64,000 bases of DNA, taken from contig NZ_CP074380.1 of NCBI RefSeq assembly GCF_022695595.1, forward strand, positions 682,001-746,000, written 5' to 3'. The translations under genes were made by a program, and so were the position numbers. The notes beneath the pieces were generated by a model that ran no database searches, had not been told where the DNA came from, and was given only the letters and a program-made list of their open reading frames with translations. Origin of the DNA: Streptomyces sp. MST-110588 (GTDB lineage: Bacteria; Actinomycetota; Actinomycetes; Streptomycetales; Streptomycetaceae). Of this stretch, positions 9,607 through 24,220 are shown piece by piece (position 1 is the first letter of the stretch; each line of letters opens with the position of its first letter).

Positions 9607-11714
9607 ATGACGACCACGGCCGACGGTACGTCCCGGGAGCCCAGGGAATCCAGGGAACCCGAGGGGCCCAAGGGACCGCAGGAGCCCAAGGGACCGCAGG
9701 GCCCCAAGGAGCCCCAGGATTCCCGCGAACCCCGGGACGGTGTCCCCAAGGCCCCGGCCGCCGCGGGGAACACCGCGGTGAGCTTCGCCTTCCCCCCGTC
9801 CGACGGGACGGAGGAAGCGGCCCGGCGCGCGGTGCTGCGGGCCACCGGCCACCTGCTGTCGCGGCAGCACACCGAGGGCTATTGGCTGGGCGTCACCTCG
9901 ACCGACGTCTCCTACGACGCCCAGGACCTGTTCCTGCGCCTGATCCTGGGGACCACGGACGAGCGCGTCACCGCGGCGACCGGCCGGTGGATCCGTTCGC
10001 GGCAGCGCGCGGACGGCACCTGGCCGCTCGCCCACGACGCTCCCGGTCACCTGGGGACCACCATCCAGGCGTACGTGGCCCTCCGCCTCGCCGGAGACCG
10101 CCCGGAGGAGGCCCATATGCTCCGGGCCGCGGCGTGGGTCCGCGAGCAGGGCGGCGTCGCAGCCGCCGAACTGATCCCCCGTGTCTGGCTCGCCGTGTTC
10201 GGCTGGTGGAGCTGGGACGACCTGCCCGAGATCCCGCCGGAGATCATCGCGCTGCCGGCCCGGGCGCCGCTGGGCATCTACGGCTTCGCCTCCTTCGCCC
10301 GTATGGTGCTGGTGCCGCTGGCGGTCATCAGCGCCTACCGGCCCGTGCGGCCGGCGCCCTTCGGCATCGGGGAACTGTTCGCCGTCGGCGACCCGCCGGC
10401 CCGCAGGGCGCCGGCCGCCCCGCTCGGCAGTTGGGACGGCGTCTTCGAGCGGCTGAACCGTGTGCTGCGCGTCTACCGCAAGGCCGGCCCCCGCTTGCCG
10501 CGGCGGGCGGCGGTGAACGCCTGTGTCCGCTGGCTCCTCGAACGCCAGGAGGCGGGCGGTGACTGGGCCGGTTTCAGTCCGACGACCGTGTACCCGGTCC
10601 TCGCCCTGTACCTGCACGGCCTCCCCCTGGACCACCCCGTACTCAAGGCCGCCCTGACCTACTTGGAGGAGAGCACGGTCTGGCACGAGGACGGCGTGCG
10701 GATGGTGGAGACGGTCCAGTCCCCGGTCTGGGACACCGCCCTGTCCGTCACCGCGCTCACCGACGCGGGCCTGCCGGCCGGTCACCCGGCGCTGGTGGGG
10801 GCCGCGGACTGGCTGCTCACCCGGCAGACCACCCGGCCCGGTGACTGGGCCGTACGGCGGCCCCGGCTCGCCCCGGGCGGCTGGGCCTTCGAGTTCGACA
10901 ACCAGAACTACCCCGACAACGACGACACCTCCGAGGTGATCCTCGCGCTGCGCCGGGTCGCCCACCCCGACCAGGCGCGGGTCGACGACGCGGTACGCAG
11001 AGGGGCGCGGTGGACCTGCGGCATGCAGTGCCGGGACGGCGGGTGGGCCGCCTTCGACGCCGACAGCGACAGCACCCTCTCCAGCAAGCTGCCCTACATG
11101 GAGATCGGTGACTACTGTGCGGACGCGCCCAGCGCCGACGTCACCGCGCACGTGGTGGAGATGCTGTCCGCCCTCGGGCGGCAGGAGGACCCCGGCACCC
11201 GGCGCGGTGTCCGCTGGCTGCTGGACCACCAGGAGGACCACGGCGCGTGGTTCGGACGCTGGGGGTGAACCACGTGTACGGCACCGGCTGCGCCGTCCCG
11301 GCCCTCACCGCCGCCGGTGTACCGGCCGGCCACCCGGCCGTCCGGCGCGCCGTCGGATGGCTGGAATCCGTACAGAACACCGACGGCGGCTGGGGGAGGA
11401 CCTGCGCTCGTACGAGGATCCGGCGTACCTCGGCAAGGGCCCGTCCACGCCGTCGCAGACGGCCTGGGCGCTGCTGGCGCTGCTGGCCGCGGGAGAGCGG
11501 GAGGGGGCCGCGGTCCGCGCGGGGTGACCTGGCTGACCGAGCGGCAGACGGAGGCCGGCACCTGGGAGGAGTCGCTGGTCACCGGCATGGGAGTCCCCGG
11601 GTCAGCATCATGAAGTACGGCCTTTACCCCCATGTCTTCCCGCTTACGGCCCTGGGCCGCTACGCCCGGCGGCAGCGCACCGGAGCCCTGACGGACGTGC
11701 CCGCGCCGGACTGA
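9607..11714 (+). pseudogene. Squalene-hopene-cyclase-like class II terpene cyclase, four apparent frameshifts
   Basis: Restored length is about 703 residues. It has the double alpha-barrel prenyltransferase/squalene-oxidase repeats: several QW motifs (QRADGTW, QCRDGGW, QNTDGGW, QTEAGTW) and the catalytic-acid motif DNDDTS at about 437-442, matching DXDD of class II cyclases. As written, the frame breaks at 11261-11265, 11392-11396, 11521-11524 and 11599-11601; adding one G at each G-run restores an unbroken, conserved tail (FGRWGVNHVYGTG, then GGWGEDLRSYEDP, then RAGVTWLTERQ, then PGVSIMKYGLYPH). I therefore think the gene is intact and the sequence is in error. The tail differs from true hopene cyclases, which have an F-x-x-N-Y-H-x-Y segment where this has SIMKYGLYPH, so the substrate may not be squalene. 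The first 45 residues are Pro/Glu/Lys/Gly-rich repeats. It faces the prenyl synthase/UbiA operon. Confidence 0.85.
9637..9738 (+). repeat. Low-complexity 9-bp-based repeat in cyclase N-terminus
   Basis: Residues about 11-44 alternate REP/SREP/GPKGPQEPK triplets, built from a 9-base period (variants of GGGCCCAAG and GGACCGCAG). It is absent from typical hopene cyclases. Confidence 0.6.
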
Positions 11715-11738
11715 CACCGTCGGCTCCACCGCCTTGGC

Positions 11739-11814
11739 CCGTACGACGCCAGGACCGTACGACGTCAGGACCCGTACGACGTCAGGACCCGTAAGCCGGC
11801 AGGACCGTACGACC
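11739..11814. repeat. 16-17-bp tandem repeat between convergent genes
   Basis: About 4.6 units of CCGTACGACGTCAGGA with small variants (positions 11739, 11755, 11771, 11788, 11805) fill most of the gap between the cyclase stop and the ABC permease stop. Each unit contains the near-palindrome GTACGACGTC. Confidence 0.75.
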
Positions 11815-11842
11815 GCGCACGGGGCGAGGCCACGAAAGGCCG

Positions 11843-12666
11843 CTACCCCGGCACCGGCGGGAAGGACCGGGTGGCCGTCTCCGGCGCCGCGGCCAGCGAC
11901 CTCCTGGCGGGTCTGCCGTAGGAGCGGGTACGGAGGTGGAAGACGAGCAGGGCCAGGGCGCTGGTCGCCGCCCACCAGGCGAGCGGCAGCGGCGCGTGCT
12001 CCCAGGGACCGTGGAGGGTGAAGGCCGCGGTCAGCGCCGACTGGTTCGCGCCGTACAGGGGAAGGGCGTCGCGGCCGGCCATGTCGACCACTTCGAGGGT
12101 CGGGTTCTGCAGGCCGGTGTCGAGCAGGCTGAGCATGATGACGAGGAAGAAGCCCTCCAGTTCCCCGCGCACCAGTGAGCCCAGCAGCAGGCCGATGCCT
12201 CCGTAGGCGAGTCCGGCGCCGAGGACCGCGAGAGCCAGGGGGCCAACTGCCGTACGGGCAGCGTCAGGTACAGCAGGGTGGTGGTGTAGAGGGACAGGAG
12301 GGCGGCGACCAGGGTGAGGGCGACGACCTTGGCCAGCAGCATGTGGAGCCGGGGGTAGCCGGCCAGCACCAGCCGGCGGTCCAGTTCCCCGGCTTTGAAC
12401 GTCTCCATGAACATCATGAAGCCGCTGACCATCGTCACGGCGCCGAGCGCGTTGGTCACCTGCCCGATGTGGTTCGCCTGGGCGACGATCCGGGTGTCCG
12501 CGGCGTCCAGGGAGAAACGTACCGTCCGGCTGGAGGCGCACACGTGGGTCACGGCGATCCATACGGGGATGAACGCTCCTGCCAGGAGCATGGCAAGGCG
12601 GTTGCGCAGATGACCCAGCAGGGAGCAGCGCAGCATCACGGCGAAGGCCGCCCAGTGACGGTTCAT
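11843..12666 (-). pseudogene. ABC-2 type permease, one apparent frameshift
   Basis: Restored length about 274 residues with six predicted hydrophobic segments, matching ABC-2 exporters. The start ATG overlaps the ATPase stop (ATGA). The frame breaks at a run of five Gs (plus strand 12238-12242); one more base joins TLPVRQLAP to LALAVLGAGLAYGG, continuing the membrane segment, so a sequencing error is more likely than real decay. With the ATPase it would form a heterodimeric or homodimeric exporter; its position in the prenyl synthase/UbiA operon suggests export of, or resistance to, the terpenoid product. Confidence 0.8.
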
Positions 12667-13298
12667 CGGGTGAGCTCCTCGGTGACGAGGCGGCCCTCGC
12701 GCAACTGGCGGACCGCGTCGAAGTGGTGGAGGTCGTGCAGCAGGTGCGAGACCACGACGATCGACCGGCCCTGGTCGCGCAGGTGGGCGGCCAGGGCCCA
12801 GAAGCGCTGGTGGGTGTCCCAGTCGAAGCCCTGGTAGGGCTCGTCCAGCACCAGGAGCAGCGGGTCGTGCATGAGGGCGAGCAGCAGGTTGAGCTTCTGC
12901 CGTGTCCCTCCGCTGAGTTCTCCGGCGCGCCGGCGCCCGCAGTCGGCGAACGCCAGCAGCTCCATCAGCTCGTGGGCCCGGGTCAGGGACGGCAGCCGGT
13001 AGGCGACCTGGAACAGCCGCAGGTGCTGCATGACGGTGAACGTGTCGTTCAGTACAGCGCTCTGCGGACAGTAGCCCATCGATCCGCTCCGCAGGACCGT
13101 TCCCTTCTCGGGTGTCATCCGCCCCACGGCGATCTGGAGCAGCGTGCTCTTGCCCGCGCCGTTCTCCCCGACGACGCCGACCAGCGCCCCGGCGGGCACG
13201 TCGAGGTCGGCGCCGCGCAGCACCTGTCTGCTGCCGTACGCCTTCCACACCCCGCTGATCCGCAGCCGTGACTGCCGTTGTCTGCCCTCTGCCCCCAC
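12663..13298 (-). CDS. ABC transporter ATP-binding protein
   Basis: 211 residues from a GTG at 13298, chosen because it follows the UbiA stop by 14 bases with AAGGGGG before it; a longer reading would overlap the whole 3-prime end of that gene. Walker A GENGAGKST near residue 47, Q-loop MGYCPQSA, signature LSGGTRQ near 126, Walker B LLLVLDEP near 145, H-loop VVSHLLHD near 179. It powers the overlapping ABC-2 permease. Third gene of an operon that begins with the polyprenyl diphosphate synthase. Confidence 0.9.
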   Translation of the reverse strand: MGAEGRQRQSRLRISGVWKAYGSRQVLRGADLDVPAGALVGVVGENGAGKSTLLQIAVGRMTPEKGTVLRSGSMGYCPQSAVLNDTFTVMQHLRLFQVAYRLPSLTRAHELMELLAFADCGRRRAGELSGGTRQKLNLLLALMHDPLLLVLDEPYQGFDWDTHQRFWALAAHLRDQGRSIVVVSHLLHDLHHFDAVRQLREGRLVTEELTR

Positions 13299-13312
13299 TC
13301 GGGCCCCCTTGG

Positions 13313-14212
13313 TCAGCGAAGTGTGTAGATGGAAGCGGCAAGCGCGAGGGTGTACCACTGTTCCACCAGGCGGTAGCTGCGCTGGTCGTGTCCGGGGCCG
13401 CGCAGCAGCACCACCCGGGCGGCCAGCAGCAGGCTCAGGCCGCCCAGGACCACGTCCGTGGCGATGACCCACCAGTGCGGGCCGGTGGGCGCCATGAGGA
13501 AGTGGTGGATGGCCCAGGGGCCGACGGCGAAACCGGCGCACAGGAAGACGCGGGTGCGGGTCTCTCCGAAGACCAGGGGCATGGTGGAGCGGCGGACCGC
13601 TCGGTCACCGTTGATGTCGCGGAGATCCTGGACGGACATGAGGAAGGTCACGGTGATCGTCAGCGTCACGATCCAGCGCCAGGCGTCCGGCGTGAGTACG
13701 GTGACGATCTCCCACGCGGCTGCCAACTGGGCGACGACGCCGATCCCGGCGTAGAGATTCCTGCCCAGCCAGTGGCGGCCCCAACCGTACTCGTGCTGGA
13801 GCAGGGAGAGGATCTGCCACATCAGGGCCCACTTCAGGACGCCCAGGCAGTAGCCGTACGCGGGGAAGGCGATCCGCACGACGGCCAGCCGCATGCGGGC
13901 GCCGCGGATGGTGCTGCGGCCGGTGACCAGGGGCCGGTGGGGCTTGTTGATGCGGTCCTCTTCGACGCCGACGAGCTGGTTGGCCAGGGTGTGCTCGTAG
14001 ACGAACAGCCAGAAGTACAGCGCTCCCGCGGCGACGGTGACCACGGTTTCCCCTGCGGACAGGCGGGCGTGGACGGTGGCCGCCATGACGAAGCAGGTGG
14101 CGGGGAAGACGGTGGTCCAGCGGTCGACGCGGATGAACAGCCAGCTCAGGCGGATCTCCCGCCAGAGTGTCTGCAGCAACGCCGCGGGAGCGCTCGTCGT
14201 CATGGTCGTCAT
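13313..14212 (-). CDS. UbiA-superfamily membrane protein, probable UbiA-type terpene cyclase
   Basis: 299 residues, about eight transmembrane helices. Prenyltransferases of this fold carry NxxxDxxxD and DxxxD. Here the first motif is N78-QLV-G82-VEE-D86, that is NxxxGxxxD, and the second is DLRDINGD with D199/D203. Gly or Ala at the middle position is the reported hallmark of the UbiA-type terpene cyclase subfamily, which ionises prenyl diphosphates without an aromatic acceptor; the platensimycin enzyme PtmT1 shows that UbiA-like proteins act as diterpene synthases in Streptomyces. Its neighbours fit: a polyprenyl diphosphate synthase 48 bp upstream and an ABC exporter downstream. An ordinary prenyltransferase with an unusual motif remains possible. 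Start ATG follows GGAG by 7 bases. Confidence 0.8.
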   Translation of the reverse strand: MTTMTTSAPAALLQTLWREIRLSWLFIRVDRWTTVFPATCFVMAATVHARLSAGETVVTVAAGALYFWLFVYEHTLANQLVGVEEDRINKPHRPLVTGRSTIRGARMRLAVVRIAFPAYGYCLGVLKWALMWQILSLLQHEYGWGRHWLGRNLYAGIGVVAQLAAAWEIVTVLTPDAWRWIVTLTITVTFLMSVQDLRDINGDRAVRRSTMPLVFGETRTRVFLCAGFAVGPWAIHHFLMAPTGPHWWVIATDVVLGGLSLLLAARVVLLRGPGHDQRSYRLVEQWYTLALAASIYTLR

Positions 14213-14260
14213 TGCTTGGCTCCGTACTCGGGCAGGCGGATCACGGCCCGCTTCCTCCCC

Positions 14261-15361
14261 TCATGCCGTGCGGTGGACGGCCGCCTCCGCGACGGTCTCC
14301 AGCGTGCGGGCCGCGCTCTGCGGGAAGGGGGCGGCCAGGGCGCCGAGCGCCTGCCGGTACCGTTCCTCGATCATCTGCTCGACCGCGGCCCGGGCTCCAG
14401 TGTTCGTGAGGAGGGTGCGGACCTCCGCGGCCTCGGGCTCCCCCAGTCGGGGGTCGCCGATCAGCGCGCGCAGCCGGCCGGCCTGGTGGGGGGCGGCGGA
14501 GCGCAAGGCGTGGACGATGAGGCTGGTGCACTTGCCCTCGCGCAGGTCGTCCAGGCGGGACTTGCCCGTCACGGCCGGGTCGCCGAAGACGCCCAGGACG
14601 TCGTCGCGGAGCTGGAAGGCTTCCCCGAGCGGTACGCCGTAGGCGGTGCAGGCGTCCAGGACCTGCTGTCCGGCACCGGCGAGGGCGGCGCCCACCTGCA
14701 GGGGGCGTTCGATGGTGTACTTCGCCGTCTTGTAGCGCACGACGGTCAGCGTCGTCTCGATGCTGACGTCGAGATCGCTGGTGGTGAGCAGGTCCAGATG
14801 CTGGCCGGCGATGAGTTCGGCGCGCGCCATGTCCACGCAGCGCAGTACGGCCGTCCGGTTGGCGTCGGGCATCGGCGTGGTGTGCAGCAGTTCGTCGGAC
14901 CAGACGAGGGCGAGGTCGCCCACGAGGATGGCACCGCTGATGCCGAAACGTTCCGCCATCGAGGGCGTGGGGTGGTGGTCGGCCAGCATGCGGTGCACGG
15001 TCGGGCGTCCGCGCCGGCTGTCGGCGGCGTCCATGATGTCGTCGTGGATGAGCGCGCAGGCGTGCGCCAGTTCGATGGAAGCGGCCAGCCTGATGATCCG
15101 CGCAGGGTCGCCCTCCCCTCTTGCCGCGTGCCATCCGGCCACGCACAGCAGGGGGCGGACCCGTTTCCCGCCGGTGATGAAGTCCCGCAGCAGCAGGGCG
15201 AGCGCCGACTGACGGGGCACCGTCGCGGTCTGCGCCTTCTCCGTCAGGAATTCGTACAGAAGCTCGTCGATCGCCGCACGCGGAGCGAAGAAGTCGGACT
15301 CGGCTGTCAGCGTTTCAGCACTCATGAGAAGAGGCGCATCCCGGGTCCGAGGGTCATCCAC
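14261..15361 (-). CDS. Polyprenyl (geranylgeranyl-type) diphosphate synthase
   Basis: 366 residues from the ATG at 15361; an in-frame ATG at 15325 is also plausible, and neither has a strong ribosome site. All-trans prenyl synthase with first Asp-rich motif HDDIMD (about 107-111) and second LRDDVLGVFGD (about 253-261), plus GGKRVRP near 64 for substrate binding. It condenses isopentenyl diphosphate with an allylic primer. Small residues (Cys, Ala) five and four positions before the first Asp are compatible with a C20 or longer product. First gene of the operon with the UbiA-type protein and the ABC exporter; the low-GC stretch upstream near 15.5 kb probably holds its promoter. Confidence 0.88.
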   Translation of the reverse strand: MDDPRTRDAPLLMSAETLTAESDFFAPRAAIDELLYEFLTEKAQTATVPRQSALALLLRDFITGGKRVRPLLCVAGWHAARGEGDPARIIRLAASIELAHACALIHDDIMDAADSRRGRPTVHRMLADHHPTPSMAERFGISGAILVGDLALVWSDELLHTTPMPDANRTAVLRCVDMARAELIAGQHLDLLTTSDLDVSIETTLTVVRYKTAKYTIERPLQVGAALAGAGQQVLDACTAYGVPLGEAFQLRDDVLGVFGDPAVTGKSRLDDLREGKCTSLIVHALRSAAPHQAGRLRALIGDPRLGEPEAAEVRTLLTNTGARAAVEQMIEERYRQALGALAAPFPQSAARTLETVAEAAVHRTA

Positions 15362-16720: not shown

Positions 16721-16914
16721 GATGGGTGCTCCTCCGACTCGTAGCCGTGACACGGCGCGCCCCCCGGGCGAGCACGGACACACCGCGTCCTTCAGGTGTT
16801 CCTCAACGGTGGCGGACACGGCCCGGCGAGCCGCGCACCGGCGGCCCCGTCCCGTTCCCGCCGGCGTCTCTCAGCATGGCAGGGGGGTCCGACAATCGTC
16901 CCCGCGCGCCCTCC

Positions 16915-18540
16915 TCAGCCGCCGAACCGGTCCCGCAGCTCCCGTTTGAGGACCTTTCCGGCGGCGTTGCGCGGCAGTTCGTCCACGAAGAGCACCCGCT
17001 TGGGGACCTTGAAGTGCGCGAGCCGTTCCCGTACGAAGGCGATCAGCTCCCGCGCGAGAGGGGCCGTCCGCCGCTCGTCTTCTCCGTTCCCCTCCTCTCC
17101 TTCGCTCCTCCCGGCCCGGCCGTCCTCCTCGTCCCCTCACCCCGTCCGTCCCGCTCCTCCCCCGGCCCGAAGCCCGGGCCCGAGGCGACGACGACCGCGG
17201 TCACCGCCTCGATCCAGCGGTCGTCCGGCAGTCCGATCACCGCGGCCTCCACGACCCGCGGGTGCGCGTACAGCACCTCCTCCACCTCCCGCGGGGCGAC
17301 CTGCACACCACCGGACTTGATCACATCCTTGACCCGGTCGACGACCGTGAAATAGCCCTGTGCGTCCCGCACCCCCAGATCCCCGAGCGGAACCAGCCGT
17401 CCCGGAAGGCCGCGCAGGTCTCCCCCGGGTCCTTCCAGTACCCCTCGCACAACTGCGGGGACCGGTAGACGATCTCACCGGGAGTGCCGTCGGGGACATC
17501 CGCGCCGGTCACGGTGTGGGCGACCCGGGCCTCCACGAAGAGGACCGGCCGTCCGCACGACTCCATCCGCCCTCGTGCTCCTGCGGCCCCAGAACGGTCG
17601 CCAGCGGCCCGATCTCGCTCTGCCCGAAGCAGTTGTACAGGGCGAGGCCGGGCAGCCGTGCGCGCAGCCGCTCCAGTACGGGCACCGGCATGGCCGACGC
17701 CCCGTAGTACGCCTTGCGCAGCCCGCTCAGGTCACGCCCGGCGAATCCGGGGTGCCGGCAGAGACCGGCCCATACGGTCGGCGGGGCGAAGAGGCTGTCG
17801 CACCGGCCCGCCTCCACCAGTTCGAAGATCCGGTACGGGCCGGGCGCGTCCAGGATCGTGTTCCGCGCGCCGACCGCCAGGTAGGGCATCAGGAAGACGT
17901 GCAACTGCGCGGAGTGGTACAGCGGCAGGGCGTGGACCGGCCGGTCGCTCTCCTTCAGGTCCAGGGCGGGCACGGCACTGGCGTACTCGTGGACCAGCGC
18001 GCGGTGCGTCATCATCGCGCCCTTGGGCCGCGCGGTCGTGCCGGAGGTGTACAGGAGCTGGGCGAGTTCCCGTTCGTCCACCTCCCCGGCACTCAGCATC
18101 GTCCTGCCCTCCCTGGGCCAGGCTTCCACCTGGTCCAGCAGCGAACCGGTGGCATCACGCAGCGGCATGGACCGTACGGACCGCGGCAGGTGGTGGGCGA
18201 GTGCCGGATCGGTCAGCACCAGCGCGCTGCCGGAATGCTCCAGGATGTAGCGCAGTTCCCCGCCGCGCAGTTGGTGGTTGACGGGTACGTGCACCAGACC
18301 GGCCCGGGCGCACGCCAGGAAGCCGATCAGATACGCGTCGGAGTTGTGCCCATAGGCGGCGACCCGGTCACCGTCGGCCAGTCCGCCTTCCCTCAGGATC
18401 ACCGACGCGGCCGTCACCGCCTCGTCCAGTTCCCGGTAGGTCCAGGCCCGGTCGCCGTAGCGCACGGCCGTACGTCCGGGGACCCGCCGGGCGCTGCGCC
18501 GCAGGACCGCGTCGACCGTGCCGCTCCGCACTCCCGTCAT
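16915..18540 (-). pseudogene. Acyl-CoA ligase (AMP-forming), three apparent frameshifts
   Basis: Restored length about 542 residues. ANL motifs: LLYTSGTTARPKGA near residue 165, YNCFGQSEIGP near 295, then, after a first break near 17566-17571, GRPVLFVEARV and SGDLGVRDAQGYFTVVDR (second break at the C-run 17381-17384), DVIKSGGVQVAP, and after a third break near 17049-17051 the end LPRNAAGKVLKRELRDRF with the catalytic lysine. Adding one base to a G/C run at each place restores a complete enzyme; the third site could also lie within the Gly/Glu-rich insert encoded at about 17055-17190. I read this as sequencing error. The enzyme activates a carboxylic acid to its CoA ester; the substrate is unknown. 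Divergent from the acylase gene. Confidence 0.82.
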
Positions 18541-18698
18541 GCGGTGATCCTCGGCCCGTCCCGCACGCGGGTCAAGACCACCGGCCCATTGGTAGGCTCA
18601 ACGCCCCCGTGCGGCACGCCAGTTGGCCTTCACCGGCCCGGTCGCCGCCGGTATACGACAGGAACGCTGAACGCTCGCCAGACACCAGGGGAGGATTC

Positions 18699-21158
18699 AT
18701 GCGCAACCGTCTGAGAAAGCTCGCACTCGCCGGGGTGGTGCTGCTGACCGCCGCGGCCCCGCTGCCGTCGGGCGCGGCGGCGGCCGAGGCCCGTACCCGT
18801 ACGCACCCGTCCGCCGACGGCCTGTCCGCCGAGATCCGCTACACCGAGTACGGGATCCCGCACATCGTCGCCGAGGACTACCCGGACCTCGGCTTCGGCG
18901 AGGGCTGGGCCCAGGCCGCCGACCAGGTCTGCACCCTGGCCGAGGGCTTCGTGACGCTGCGCGGCGAGCGCTCCCGGTACTTCGGCGCGACCGGTGCCGC
19001 CGACCCCGCCCTGTCCTCCGCGACCACCAATCTCGCCGGCGACCTGTACTTCAAGGGCGTACGCGAGTCCGGCACCGTAGAGAAACTGCTGCGGCAGCCC
19101 GCGCCCGCCGGGCCGGGACACGAGGTCCAGGAGCTGATGCGCGGCTGGGTGGCCGGGTACAACGCCTGGCTGCGGCACAACCGCGTCACCGATCCCGCCT
19201 GTGCGGGCAAGGACTGGGTACGGCCGGTGACCCGGCTCGACGTGGCGATGCGCGGGTATGCGCTCGCGGTTCTCGGCGGCCAGGGCCGTGCGGTCGACGG
19301 CATCACCGCGGCCCAGCCGCCCGCCGGTTCCGCCACTTCCGGGCCCGCCACTTCCGGGCCCACCACCTCCGGGCCTGCCGCCCCGGGCCGTACGACCGGA
19401 AGCCGCGCCGCCGTCGCCGCCGCCCGCGCGCTCTTCCCTCAGGACGGCGCGGACATGGGCTCCAACGCGGTGGCGTTCCAGGGCTCCACGACGGCCGACG
19501 GCCGCGGTCTGCTCCTGGGCAATCCCCACTACCCCTGGTCCGGTGGCCGGCGCTTCTGGCAGTCGCAGGTCACCATCCCCGGCGAGCTGAACGCGGCGGG
19601 CGCCTCCCTCCTGGGTTCCTCCACCATTTCCATCGGCCACAACGCCCGTGTCGCATGGAGCCACACCGTGGCCACCGGCGTGCCGTTCAGCCTCCACCGG
19701 CTCACCCCGGACCCCGCCGACCCGACCGCCTACCTCGTGGACGGCAGGTCCGAGCCCATGAAGAAGCGGACCGTCACCGTCCCGGTGCAGGACGGCACCA
19801 CGGTCACCCGTACGCAGTGGTGGACGCGTTACGGGCCCGTGCTGACCTCTCTGGGGCAGCTCAAGCTGCCCTGGAGCCGGTCCGAGGTGTACGCCGTCAA
19901 CGACCCCAACGCGGTCAACATGCGCTCCGGTGACACCTCCCTGGCCTTCAGCAAGGCCGACGGCGTGGCCGGCATCGAGCGCGCGCTGCGCCGTACGCAG
20001 GGGCTGCCGTGGACGAACACCGTGGCCGCCGACGCCGCCGGGCACACCCTCTACACCCAGGCGCAGGTGCTGCCCCGGGGCACCGACGACCTCGCGCGGC
20101 GCTGCTCCACGCCGCTGGGCGCCGCCACCTACCCGGCCACGGGTCTGGCGGTCCTGGACGGCTCACGGTCCGACTGCGCCTTCGGCAGCGACCCGGACGC
20201 CGTTCAGCCGGGCATCTTCGGCCCGTCCGCGGTGCCCACGCTCAAGGACGCCCCGTATGCCGAGAACTCCAACGACAGTGCCTGGCTGTCCAACGCCGAC
20301 CGGCCGCTCACCGGATACCCGCGCATCTTCGGGGACATCGGTACGCCGCGCTCGCTGCGTACCCGCGGCGCCTTGGAAGACGTCTCGGCGATGGCCGCCC
20401 GGGGCCGGCTCACCGTGGCGGACCTGCAACGACAGCAGTTCGCCAACCGGGCGCCGGCCGGTGGTCTGGCCGCCGCGGACACCGCCGCCGCCTGCTCCGC
20501 ACTGCCCGGCGGCACCGCGCCGGACAGCGGCGGCAGGCCGGTCGACGTCCGGGAAGCGTGTGAGGTCATCGGCCACTGGGACCGGACCGTACGCACCGAC
20601 AGCGAAGGCGCCCTGCTGTTCGACCGGTTCTGGCGGAAACTGACCGCCAAGGTGCCGCCGGCCGAGCGGTGGAAGACCCCGTTCGACCCGGCCGATCCCG
20701 TACACACCCCACGCACCCTGAACACCGCGGCCCCCGGCTTCACCACCGCCCTCGCCGACGCCGTGGCCGAACTGTGCGCCGCGGGCATCCCGCTCGACGC
20801 TCCCCTGGGAGAGCACCAGTTCGTCGTACGGAACGGCAAGCGGATCCCCGTCCCCGGCGGCACCGAGGCGCTCGGGATCTGGAACAAGACCGAGGGCCTG
20901 TGGGATCCGGCGGGCGGTGGATACCGCGAGGTGGTCCACGGCTCCAGCTACATCCAGGCGGTCGGGTTCGACGGCAGCCGCTGCCCGGTGGCCCGTACGC
21001 TGCTGACCTACTCGCAGTCCTCCAACCCGCTCTCCCCGCACTACAGCGACCAGACCGAGCTGTACTCGGCCGGCCGTATGATCCGCGAGCGGTTCTGCGA
21101 GAAGGACATCCTGGCCTCACCGGAGCTGAGGGTGGTACGCGTCCACGACGGCCGCTGA
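18699..21158 (+). CDS. Secreted penicillin-acylase-family Ntn hydrolase
   Basis: 819 residues. ATG at 18699 with GGGGAGG upstream. A signal peptide (residues 1 to about 29, KLALAGVVLLTAAAPLP core) directs export. The family is made as a precursor and self-cleaves to alpha and beta chains; the expected beta-chain nucleophile is the Ser in MGSNAVAF, about residue 255, followed by NPHYPW and GHNARVAWSHT. Members hydrolyse amide bonds of penicillins, acyl-homoserine lactones or lipopeptides (aculeacin acylase type, which this resembles in length). A Thr/Ser/Gly/Pro repeat (TSGPATSGPTTSGP) just before the cleavage site lies in the probable spacer peptide. Substrate is not evident from the neighbourhood. 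Confidence 0.88.
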   Translation: MRNRLRKLALAGVVLLTAAAPLPSGAAAAEARTRTHPSADGLSAEIRYTEYGIPHIVAEDYPDLGFGEGWAQAADQVCTLAEGFVTLRGERSRYFGATGAADPALSSATTNLAGDLYFKGVRESGTVEKLLRQPAPAGPGHEVQELMRGWVAGYNAWLRHNRVTDPACAGKDWVRPVTRLDVAMRGYALAVLGGQGRAVDGITAAQPPAGSATSGPATSGPTTSGPAAPGRTTGSRAAVAAARALFPQDGADMGSNAVAFQGSTTADGRGLLLGNPHYPWSGGRRFWQSQVTIPGELNAAGASLLGSSTISIGHNARVAWSHTVATGVPFSLHRLTPDPADPTAYLVDGRSEPMKKRTVTVPVQDGTTVTRTQWWTRYGPVLTSLGQLKLPWSRSEVYAVNDPNAVNMRSGDTSLAFSKADGVAGIERALRRTQGLPWTNTVAADAAGHTLYTQAQVLPRGTDDLARRCSTPLGAATYPATGLAVLDGSRSDCAFGSDPDAVQPGIFGPSAVPTLKDAPYAENSNDSAWLSNADRPLTGYPRIFGDIGTPRSLRTRGALEDVSAMAARGRLTVADLQRQQFANRAPAGGLAAADTAAACSALPGGTAPDSGGRPVDVREACEVIGHWDRTVRTDSEGALLFDRFWRKLTAKVPPAERWKTPFDPADPVHTPRTLNTAAPGFTTALADAVAELCAAGIPLDAPLGEHQFVVRNGKRIPVPGGTEALGIWNKTEGLWDPAGGGYREVVHGSSYIQAVGFDGSRCPVARTLLTYSQSSNPLSPHYSDQTELYSAGRMIRERFCEKDILASPELRVVRVHDGR

Positions 21159-21248: not shown

Positions 21249-22807
21249 CTACACGGCGCGCTCCCGGCCCTCCCAGTACGGGTCGCGGAGCCGCCGCTTG
21301 TAGAGCTTGCCGTTCGGGTCGCGCGGCATGGCGGCGGTGAACTCCAGCGTCCTGGGCCGTTTGTACGCCGCGAGCCGCTCGGCGCAGTGCGCGAGGATCT
21401 CCTCGGCCAGCGCGGGGCCCGGCCGGTGCCCGTCGGCCGGCTCGACCACGGCCTTGACCTCCTCACCCCAGTCCTCGTGCGGGACACCGAAGGCCGCGGC
21501 GTCCGCGACCGCGGGATGGGCGAGGAGGGCGGACTCGATCTCGGCGGGGTAGATGTTGACCCCGCCCGAGATGATCAGGTCGATCTTGCGGTCGTGGAGG
21601 AAGAGATAGCCGTCCTCGTCGAGGTGGCCGAGGTCGCCGACGGTGAAGAAGTCACCGATCCGGTTCCGGCGCGTCTTGTCCTCGTCCTTGTGGTAGCTGA
21701 ATCCGCCGGTGGTCATCTTCATGTAGACCGTGCCCGTCTCGCCGGGCGGCAGCCGGTTGCCGTCGTCGTCGAAGACGGCGAGTTCGCTGATGGGCCACGC
21801 CTTTCCGACGGTGCCCGGCTTCTTGAGCCAGTCCTGCGCGGTGGCGAACGCCCCGCCGCCCTCACTGGCCGCGTAGTACTCCTCGACGCAGTTCCCCCAC
21901 CAGTCGATCATCGCCCGCTTGACGTGGTCGGGGCAGGGCGCGGCGCCGTGGATGGCGTGCCGCATGGAGGAGACGTCGTACGCCGTCCGGATCTCCTGCG
22001 GAAGGGCGAGCAGGCGGTGGAACTGGGTCGGCACCATGTGCGTATGGGTGCAGCGGTAGGTCTCGATGAGGCGCAGCATCTCTTGGGGCGTCCACTTGTC
22101 CATCAGGACCAGCCGGTGCCCCATGTGCAGGGAGGCCGCCGCGAATTGCAGCACGGCGGTGTGGTAGAGCGGCGAGCAGACCAGGTGCACGTTGCCGTCG
22201 AACGGCTTGATGCCGAAGATGCCCAGGAAGCCGCCGAGCGCGGTCTCCTCGGGCGGCTTGCCGGGCAGCGGGCGGCGGATGCCGCGCGGGCGGCCGGTGG
22301 TGCCGGAGGTGTAGTTCATGACCCAGCCCAGGGTGCGGCCCTCGGGTACGGAACCCGGACGGCCCGCCAGGAGATCCGCGTACGGACGGAATCCGTCGAC
22401 CGTGCCGACCGCGTAACGCTGTCCGGCGGGCAGCCGCGCCTGGTCCGCGGCGGCGCGCACGGCGCCGGCGAACCGCTCGTGGGCGATGAGCGCCTTGGCC
22501 CCGAGTCGCGGAGGATCCAGGCGATCTCCGGGCCTACCGAGTGGTGGTTGACGGGGACGAGGTACCAGCCGGCCTGCGAGGCGGCGAGGTAGGCGGTGAG
22601 CATCTCGACGCCGTTGGGCAGGACGACGGCGAAGGCGTCGCCGCGCTCCAGGCCGGCCGCGCGCAGTCCGTGCACCAGGCGGTTGCAGGCGGCGTGCAGC
22701 CGGTCCGCGGTCCAGCGCTCGCCGTCGGGCGCGAAAAGGACCGTACGGTCGGGGTCGGCGGCGGCCTGGGCCCAGAAGCCGTTGGGGGGCCGGGACTCGT
22801 CGGTCAT
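21249..22807 (-). pseudogene. Acyl-CoA ligase (AMP-forming), one apparent frameshift
   Basis: Restored length 519 residues; ATG at 22807 preceded by GAGGAGGAC. Motifs: MNYTSGTTGRPRGI near residue 165, YYAASEGGG near 310, VGDLGHLDEDGYLFLHDR near 385, and PRDPNGKLYKRRLRD at the end with the catalytic lysine. The frame breaks at the C-run 22499-22502 (minus GGGG); one extra base joins WILRDSGA to KALIAHERF. It is a second fatty or aryl acid activator, close to the FadD17/FadD13-type bile-acid ligases by its overall pattern, though that is only an impression. The nitronate-monooxygenase-like gene lies 144 bp upstream on the same strand, so both may be one unit. Confidence 0.82.
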
Positions 22808-22906
22808 GGCACTGTCCTCCTCGGGAGCGGGGCGGTGGTCGGTGGGGTCGTGACGGTGGCGGGGCCGGACGGGCGCGCGGTGAGCGGCGTACGGGGCGCG
22901 GCGTAC

Positions 22907-22960
22907 GGCACCGCGCCGGGCATGTCAGCCGCGGGCACCGCGCCGGGCATGTCAGCCGCG
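22907..22960. repeat. 27-bp direct repeat, two copies
   Basis: GGCACCGCGCCGGGCATGTC plus seven bases occurs at 22907 and again at 22934, in tandem with 27-bp period. The second copy supplies the stop codon of the flavoprotein gene ending at 22952. Confidence 0.8.
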
Positions 22961-24055
22961 CCCGGCGATGCGGTTGACGCGGTCGACGGCGGCCTCGAAG
23001 CCGCGGGTCAGGTCGTCGAAGACCTCCCGTACACCGCGCTCGGAGTTCATCCGGCCGACGATCTGGCCGACCGGCGTACCCAGCAGCGGCTCGACCTCGT
23101 ACTTCTGGATGCGGGAGAGGGCGTCGGCGACCAGCAGCCCCTGGAGCGGCATGGGCAGCGGGCCGGGGCCGGCCGGGTCGTCCCAGGCGTCGGTCCACGC
23201 GGTGCGCAACTGGCGGGCGGGCTTGCCGCTCAGCGCGCGCGAGCGGACGGTGTCGCCCGGCCCCGCCGCCAGGAGTTTGCGGGTCAGGGCACGGGAGTGC
23301 AGCGAGGCTTCGGTGGTGGTCAGCCAGATGGAGCCGAGCCAGACACCCTGCGCGCCCAGGGCCAGCCCGGCGGCGATCTGTTCCCCGGTGCCGATGCCGC
23401 CGGCGGCCAGGACGGGCAGCGGGTGCACGGCCCGTACGACTTCCGGGGTCAGCACCATCGTGGCGATCTCGCCGGTGTGGCCGCCGGCCTCGTAGCCCTG
23501 GGCGACGACGATGTCGATCCCGGCGTCCTTGTGGCGCCGGGCGTGGTGCGGGCTGCCGGCCAGCGCGGCGAGGAGGACGCCACGGTCGTGGGCCCGTCGT
23601 ACGACATCGGCGGGCGGCGGGCCGAGCGCGCTGGCCAGCAGCCTGACCGGGTGGTCGAAGGCCACGTCCAGTTGGCCGCGCGCGACCTGCTCCATCCAGC
23701 CGGTGATACGCCAGCCGGACGCCTCGCCCTCGCGCAGCGGGGGAACGCCGTACCGGGCCAGGACGTCCTGGACGAAACGGCGGTGCTCCGGCGGGATCAT
23801 CGCCTCGACGTCGGCTTCCGTGACGCCCTCCACCTTCTTGGCGGGCATGACGACGTCGAGTCCGTACGGCAGTCCGTCGGTGTGCCGGGTCATCCACTCC
23901 AGGTCCCGGGCGAGATCGTCCGGGGCGGTGTAGCGGACGGCGCCCAGGACGCCCAGGCCGCCGGCCCGGGTGATCGCGGCGGCCACGGCGGGGAACGGCG
24001 TGAACCCGAAGACGGCGTGCTCGATGCCCAGCGCGTTGCTCAGCTCCGTCTGCAT
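22952..24055 (-). CDS. Nitronate monooxygenase / 2-nitropropane dioxygenase-like flavoprotein
   Basis: 367 residues from the ATG at 24055. TIM-barrel FMN protein: FPAVAAAITRAGGLGVLG near residue 21, DIVVAQGYEAGGHTGE near 190 and the phosphate-binding VLAAGGIGTGEQIAAGLALGAQGVWLGS near 220. The VAQGxEAGGHxG segment is characteristic of nitronate monooxygenases and related NAD(P)H-dependent flavin reductases, which protect against propionate-3-nitronate; steroid-degradation clusters carry a similar protein. It precedes a CoA ligase on the same strand. No strong ribosome site was found before the chosen start. Confidence 0.85.
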   Translation of the reverse strand: MQTELSNALGIEHAVFGFTPFPAVAAAITRAGGLGVLGAVRYTAPDDLARDLEWMTRHTDGLPYGLDVVMPAKKVEGVTEADVEAMIPPEHRRFVQDVLARYGVPPLREGEASGWRITGWMEQVARGQLDVAFDHPVRLLASALGPPPADVVRRAHDRGVLLAALAGSPHHARRHKDAGIDIVVAQGYEAGGHTGEIATMVLTPEVVRAVHPLPVLAAGGIGTGEQIAAGLALGAQGVWLGSIWLTTTEASLHSRALTRKLLAAGPGDTVRSRALSGKPARQLRTAWTDAWDDPAGPGPLPMPLQGLLVADALSRIQKYEVEPLLGTPVGQIVGRMNSERGVREVFDDLTRGFEAAVDRVNRIAGRG

Positions 24056-24220
24056 GGGCGCAGGATGCCGCAGCGGGCCGTACGAGGGAAGACTTCTCTG
24101 ACGTACCGTCAGTTGTGCGGTGTGCGTCCGCACGTCTCCCGCACACCCGCCATGTCACTTCTTCACCGGTCCCGTCCGTCCACCAGGAAAACGGCCGGAA
24201 CCTCCAACGGAAGGCATGAG

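Follow-up and report, generated by a model that had tools for sequence, protein, structure and literature searches.

A conserved five-gene terpenoid cassette of Streptomyces with a UbiA-type cyclase and a divergent squalene-hopene cyclase-like gene

Gene content of the locus

A stretch of 64,000 nucleotides from Streptomyces sp. MST-110588 (hereafter the window; C1:682001-746000 of a 7.9 Mb single-contig genome) was analysed computationally for a terpenoid locus. The window contains a set of five genes. A polyprenyl diphosphate synthase, a UbiA-type protein, an ATP-binding cassette (ABC) ATPase and a permease lie on the minus strand, and a squalene-hopene cyclase (SHC)-like gene of the plus strand meets the permease tail to tail. 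A preliminary description, made from the letters alone, had proposed an operon of the first four genes facing an SHC-like cyclase. The genes were confirmed there, the permease by similarity to an intact orthologue and the others with Pfam matches and motifs, at the following window positions.

9607..11268, plus strand: SHC-like class II cyclase, N-terminal to central region (SQHop_cyclase_N PF13249 and the start of SQHop_cyclase_C PF13243, Pfam)
about 11258..11714, plus strand: C-terminal part of the SHC-like gene, in four further pieces (~11259-11393, 11396-11524, 11533-11598, 11607-11714)
11843..12666, minus strand: ABC-2-type permease (frame change near 12240; similarity to an intact orthologue)
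12663..13310, minus strand: ABC transporter ATPase (upstream end approximate, open frame to 13541; ABC_tran PF00005)
13313..14212, minus strand: UbiA-type terpene cyclase, StsC-like (UbiA PF01040, cyclase motifs)
14261..15361, minus strand: polyprenyl diphosphate synthase (likely start near 15325; polyprenyl synthetase PF00348)

The SHC-like frame opens with MTTTAD, a start that it has in common with the S. rimosus orthologue, and its DXDD motif is DNDD at 10915. The intact N-terminal piece has six QW-like repeats, and the downstream pieces have another two. With both SQHop domains, QW repeats and DXDD, the protein belongs to the SHC family. The class-II-type cyclase of the preliminary description was right in motif and repeats, but the gene is not one frame and has four breaks. 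Collagen-like Gly-Pro-x repeats (EGPKGPQEPKGPQGPKEPQ) are present in the N-terminal extension of the SHC-like frame at window 9640-9730, and the S. rimosus orthologue does not have them.

The UbiA-type cyclase and its relation to StsC

The UbiA-type protein matched PF01040 with 74.1 bits against a cut-off of 34.2. It carries NQLVGVEED at 13981-13955 (NxxxGxxxD) and QDLRDINGD at 13630-13604 (QDxxDxxxD), and NXXX(G/A)XXXD/QDXXDXXXD has been given as the motif rule of UbiA-type synthases (PMC9835599). In the search, 83 homologues were found and 34 of these were aligned. G82, D86, Q195, D196, D199 and D203 are kept in all 34, and N78 in at least 90%. The four other UbiA-family genes of the genome did not show NxxxG; two have D for the G and two gave no pattern match. 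The assignment as a UbiA-type cyclase is upheld by these results, and a menaquinone or heme prenyltransferase was rejected on the cyclase motifs. Nineteen homologues including the window protein are at least 77% identical (Streptomyces where named) and the next ones are at most 52% identical. The more distant ones include proteins from Archangium, cyanobacteria, Nocardia, Rhodococcus, Polyangiales and Herpetosiphon, and three fungal proteins. One homologue (P0030) bears the JGI label '(R)-axinyssene synthase', the source of which was untraceable.

In the named genome collection, the window protein is 80% identical to a protein of Streptomyces somaliensis DSM 40738. Three UbiA-family genes are present in that assembly, and only the 80%-identical one matches NxxxG. 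We take DSM 40738 and ATCC 33201 to be the same S. somaliensis type strain. StsC is a UbiA-superfamily membrane protein of S. somaliensis which converts the C25 substrate geranylfarnesyl diphosphate (GFPP) to somaliensenes A and B (PMC7693059), and its source strain is ATCC 33201 (PMC10301674). Judging from strain and uniqueness, the DSM 40738 protein is presumably StsC. The earlier statement that no product is described for such a gene combination was therefore only partly correct. Somaliensenes A and B of StsC are described, but a role of the SHC was not found in the literature searched.

The polyprenyl diphosphate synthase

The synthase has Asp-rich motifs DDIMD at 15043-15029 and DDVLG at 14605-14591. 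The segment AASIELAH[A/T]CAL[I/V]HDDIMD is found in the synthases of the window and of the 10 cassettes listed, so that small residues precede the first Asp-rich motif. The nearest solved relative, 3lk5, has bulkier residues just before the motif. The small residues may be a slight hint in the direction of a longer product, being compatible with a chain above C20.

Conservation of the cassette

With the window proteins, 99 loci, most of about 20 kb, were searched; the 80 named ones are the best 80 of 187 relatives. Loci with a UbiA identity of at least 78% were treated as close relatives, namely L061-L071 (11 named strains, L061 being S. rimosus NRRL WC-3904), L044 and L047. L042, L043, L045 and L046, whose contigs equal four of the named ones in length, did not enter the count a second time. 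The 69 other named loci (L072-L140), some of them cut by contig ends, served as the distant set. The search list for the cassette omitted ABC matches below 120 bits and synthase matches below 60 bits, and the presence of the permease rests on the query permC (13/13) and on a search with the intact orthologue.

The synthase, UbiA, ATPase, permease and SHC genes occur together in all 13 close relatives, and neither the SHC nor the permease was found in any of the 69 other named UbiA loci. The position of the SHC gene changes among the relatives. In L061, L064, L065 (at a distance), L067, L070, L071, L044 and L047 it follows the permease tail to tail; in L062, L063, L068 and L069 it precedes the synthase. 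L066 (S. minutiscleroticus) has two different SHC-like genes, one on each side of the operon, which belong to two sub-branches of the SHC clade described below. The linkage goes beyond chance because the five genes recur in 13/13 close relatives. Conservation of the neighbourhood in other Streptomyces, a check named in the preliminary description, was borne out by the joint comparison of loci.

The same pattern was obtained in a sample of 392 Streptomyces genomes. UbiA matches occur in 29 of them and reach at least 80% identity in 7. When the S. rimosus SHC was used as the query, an SHC of at least 64% identity was present, among the matches listed, only in G048, G036, G340, G163, G181 and G378. 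These six genomes, with the broken copy of the present strain, are the same 7 that carry UbiA at 80% or above (again among the matches listed). Some SHC at 1e-200 is present in 364/392 genomes. The locus is a real, conserved five-gene terpenoid cassette and is nearest to the presumed StsC locus.

Among the long frames rich in GC at third codon positions (GC3) of L061-L071 and the first 26 kb of the window, these five genes and frames overlapping them were the only ones to recur in the four reference loci listed, and no sixth broadly recurrent gene was found in the flanks read. A larger conserved cluster was considered and rejected; the phenylacetate-CoA ligase matched in 0/99 loci and the glyoxalase in one, at 28%. 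A large penicillin-amidase family gene (849 aa) lies near the cassette at window 18609-21158.

A separate clade of SHC-like cyclases

An intact orthologue of the cassette SHC matched a solved SHC with an E value of 2.2e-156 vs 1.5e-11 for the ent-CPP synthase 5bp8, and a class II gene of the copalyl diphosphate synthase (CPS) type, as in platensimycin biosynthesis, was rejected on these values. The cassette SHC is 59% identical to the hopanoid SHC of the same genome. In a tree of 86 rows, 56 cassette-type SHCs were separated from 30 others by a branch with 100/100 support. The 56 rows comprise 20 sequences of cassette loci, with some duplicates among them, and P0085-P0120, taken without their gene context. 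The 30 others are the best copy of 11 genomes and 19 proteins likewise taken without context. Of the 11 copies, that of the strain itself (L141) alone was shown to stand among hpn genes, and the other 10 were chosen as the best matches to it. This tree leaves out six P rows and the SHCs L153 and L165, both on long branches; in an earlier quick tree rooted with L165 the cassette clade had a support of 84. The cassette SHC does not fall on the branch of the hopanoid-type SHCs. At 52 signature columns covered by the window piece, 40 residues are cassette-like and 4 are hopanoid-like. The next best SHC in the genome sample, that of G371 at 62%, is hopanoid-like at 58/60 signature columns. In the group-specific columns, at least 33 of the 36 comparison SHCs agree among themselves.

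The residues were compared with the numbering of the solved A. acidocaldarius SHC. D374, D376, D377, W312 and H451 are kept in 56/56 cassette SHCs, so the DXDD acid is intact, and Y609 and Y612 are kept in all 54 rows reaching that far. By contrast, E45, E93, R127, F129, F601 and F605, each kept in at least 35/36 comparison SHCs, are lost. E45 is found in 0/56 (H in 41, Q in 15), E93 in 0/56 (Q in 55, H in 1), R127 in 1/56 and F129 in 0/56, and F601 (V in 47/54) and F605 (V in 45/54) are found in 0/54 each. Position 262 is T in 49/56 and S in the window, C435 is replaced by F in 51, I261 and P264 also differ, and W169 is kept in 8. According to the structural literature, the kept residues are those around the acid and where the first rings form; the changed ones belong to the region of the later rings, to the site of the terminal water and to the entrance. 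This pattern fits an enzyme that would start at a free isoprenoid tail and meet a far end other than that of squalene. The clade, although annotated as hopanoid enzymes, most likely makes something else.

A hopanoid explanation has to be weighed at this point. The cassette SHC could make an ordinary or slightly altered hopanoid or triterpene from hpnCDE squalene, as a chance neighbour of the operon or a spare hopanoid gene. The score above a hopene-cyclase cut-off, the 59% identity to the hopanoid SHC and the presence of hpnCDE in the genome speak for it. However, a complete hopanoid set with its own full-length SHC is found elsewhere in the genome (C1:7.12 Mb; hpnC, hpnD, hpnE, polyprenyl synthase, SHC and hpnH), and the 9 frames scanned in 7.9-16.8 kb of the window contain no hpn gene other than the SHC match, as the preliminary description had noted. 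A local hopanoid cluster is therefore rejected. The linkage in 13/13 relatives with a changing position, against 0/69 in the other named UbiA loci, the matching presence of UbiA and SHC in the 392-genome sample (among the matches listed), and the separate clade with its lost far-end residues also argue against a hopanoid role, which we regard as highly unlikely.

Interrupted SHC and permease reading frames

The SHC-like frame ends at 11268, about four fifths through the protein, and the remainder is present only as the four pieces, in changing frames. The breaks are near 11262, 11396, 11525 and 11600. The permease has one break near 12240, and the intact orthologue matched the genome as two pieces, with 65% and 70% identity. 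No Pfam match was obtained in the broken permease frames, and the intact orthologue itself reached 24.2 bits for ABC2_membrane_3, below the cut-off of 31.6. The ABC-2 permease named in the preliminary description is thus supported by the similarity to the intact orthologue, but not by its own frames.

These breaks could mean that the cassette is decaying in this strain. The SHC and permease genes would then be pseudogenes, and only a product of the UbiA stage would be made, if any. Four breaks in one gene and one in another fit this explanation, as do the uninterrupted SHC frames of all 13 relatives. The pieces past the SHC breaks speak against it. Their GC3 is 0.88-0.95 and they have no stops. 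Five cassette SHC references match them at 54-84% identity, the hopanoid SHC of the same genome at 41-72%. The identity of the pieces stays near that of the intact part. Against P0120, the two halves of the intact part gave 69 and 71% and the four pieces 84, 81, 59 and 83%; against P0086, the values were 69 and 65% for the halves and 80, 81, 73 and 54% for the pieces. Runs of G or C of 4-5 are found at 5/5 breaks, and runs of at least 4 make up 5.3% of the bases in 9607-12680.

Two AMP-binding genes of the window (16900-18540 and 21250-24160) likewise match their family only partly, with frame changes near 17.1-17.6 kb and 22.5 kb. They are likely further frame breaks of this assembly and fit a local consensus error. 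In a rough frame test with PF00501, 2 of 53 listed matches of the genome (of 72) stop over 50 positions short, including one in the window, and none of the listed G036 matches does so. The breaks of the SHC and permease genes are most likely a local consensus or homopolymer sequencing error. Since the relatives have open SHC genes, error is likelier than decay, and decay is considered unlikely. Recent real slippage could also have produced the breaks, one assembly having been examined.

The exporter and a variant with a methyltransferase

Permease matches at 1e-8 were found in 110/392 genomes, and permeases of 65-68% identity are present in 12 listed genomes without the cassette. The exporter on its own is not diagnostic of the cassette. 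Nine of these 12 neighbourhoods were read, and the same flavin monooxygenase adjoins the exporter in 9/9. Two of them, L209 (G020) and L210 (G110), have next to the exporter not only the flavin monooxygenase but also a methyltransferase and a 739-aa fusion of terpene synthase and P450; the other seven (L208 and L211-L216) have the exporter adjoining the same flavin monooxygenase. The position of the exporter beside a terpene synthase-P450 fusion supports a putative terpenoid cargo.

A related gene set was found in G337 at L186:4942-10908. It consists of a SAM-dependent methyltransferase, an ABC ATPase, a permease, a polyprenyl synthase and an SHC, with no UbiA gene, and G337 is absent from the 29 genomes with a UbiA match. 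Its identities to L061 are 81% for the ATPase, 62% for the permease, 32% for the synthase and 58% for the SHC. The methyltransferase takes the place of UbiA and shares a few bases with the ATPase frame. The SHC is intermediate, with 14 hopanoid-like and 23 cassette-like residues at the 60 signature columns.

Discussion

We propose that the cassette encodes a two-step cyclisation pathway to a polycyclic sesterterpene, a reading which is held with moderate confidence. The product of the polyprenyl synthase would be a linear isoprenyl diphosphate, probably GFPP (C25). As a class I enzyme, the UbiA-type membrane protein would ionise the diphosphate and cyclise the head end. The SHC-like enzyme would then protonate the free tail and cyclise it as a class II enzyme, and the final product would leave or cross the membrane by way of the ATPase and permease. 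The C25 chain, the action of class I before class II, the use of the UbiA product by the SHC and the export are the parts that we infer. For the order of UbiA before SHC, Bacillus offers a two-step precedent in which YtpB is followed by SqhC. YtpB itself is not known to be a UbiA protein.

Several points weigh against this pathway. The identity of StsC with the S. somaliensis locus is presumed from strain and uniqueness and not from the sequence of StsC itself. No bacterial GFPP synthase had been reported by 2020, according to PMC7693059. An SHC acting on a UbiA product was not found in the open-access literature. The N-terminal SHC piece passes the NCBIfam hopene-cyclase cut-off of TIGR01507 (456.5 vs 431.1 bits), and the relatives of the cassette SHC are named squalene-hopene cyclase in databases. 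Both the SHC and the permease have broken frames in this assembly, and the synthase matches as two frame pieces in the relatives L062 and L069. Finally, G337 has a related SHC with a methyltransferase instead of UbiA, so the tie of SHC and UbiA is not universal.

The main rival of the proposed pathway is the opposite order, as in platensimycin biosynthesis. The SHC-type enzyme would first cyclise the tail of GFPP or geranylgeranyl diphosphate (GGPP) with the diphosphate still on, and UbiA would then ionise the bi- or tricyclic diphosphate. Somaliensenes would in that case be derailment products of StsC given linear GFPP alone. The same two enzyme classes are present in PtmT2 and the UbiA-type synthase of that system (PMC10301674), and StsC was described with GFPP, no class II product being named as a substrate in the accessible text. 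The loss of the acidic E45 and E93, with His at position 45 in 41/56, would suit a diphosphate. On the other hand, the class II gene is of the SHC type and not of the CPS type, the named far-end positions show, apart from His 45, no basic residue that is newly conserved, and linear GFPP is accepted by StsC (PMC7693059). In the Bacillus precedent, moreover, the class I enzyme comes first and the SHC homologue second (PMC8144471). The C20 logic of platensimycin in the preliminary description does not hold, the class II gene being SHC-type and the UbiA relative being the presumed StsC which uses C25 GFPP. We judge the platensimycin-like order to be improbable and retain the order of UbiA before SHC.

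The co-occurrence of the five genes, the separate SHC clade and the far-end residue losses are new here. Beyond this, we tentatively suggest, as a possibility somewhat short of even, that the cassette represents a recurrent exporter-coupled platform of two-step polyterpene cyclisation in Streptomyces. It would combine a neofunctionalised SHC clade with an exchangeable head enzyme, UbiA or methyltransferase, and yield new polycyclic C25+ hopanoid-like lipids or antibiotics with somaliensenes as intermediates. As far as searched, such a platform is undescribed. StsC, characterised as a single enzyme, would become part of a pathway of five conserved genes, and the known somaliensenes are predicted to be intermediates and not the end product. 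If true, the supply of an SHC by a class I enzyme of the UbiA type would be a new pairing for polycyclic sesterterpenes. In addition, a short list of residues recognises the SHC clade that annotation calls hopanoid.

Comparison with known systems

An SHC joined to StsC or to another bacterial UbiA cyclase was not found in the open-access literature, the original StsC paper and most subscription journals being outside it. Gromomycin was considered for comparison; it has a polyprenyl synthase with a different cyclase, and no UbiA or SHC is named in its gene table (PMC12105684).

The presumed StsC locus is the closest known system. Its UbiA product is 80% identical to the window protein with the same motifs, and it has the same operon of synthase, UbiA, ABC ATPase and permease with an SHC adjoining. 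The difference lies in what is in print. In the accessible text of PMC9835599, PMC7693059 and PMC10301674, the UbiA enzyme alone is dealt with, and the synthase, SHC and exporter are unmentioned. A hopanoid cluster resembles the cassette in that a polyprenyl synthase adjoins an SHC. However, the complete hopanoid cluster is elsewhere in the genome, and the cassette SHC forms a separate clade.

For platensimycin and platencin, PtmT2 is the class II enzyme and acts together with a UbiA-type class I enzyme, so the two classes are found in both systems (PMC10301674). In contrast to the cassette, PtmT2 acts first, on GGPP, whereas the class II gene of the cassette is SHC-type and its UbiA relative takes GFPP. 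In Bacillus, YtpB makes tetraprenyl-beta-curcumene and the SHC homologue SqhC then makes the tetracyclic C35 product (PMC8144471). The likeness is that a first enzyme converts a long prenyl diphosphate and an SHC homologue then makes the polycycle; the difference is the C35 chain, and for the window cassette the order of the cyclases is the one proposed above.

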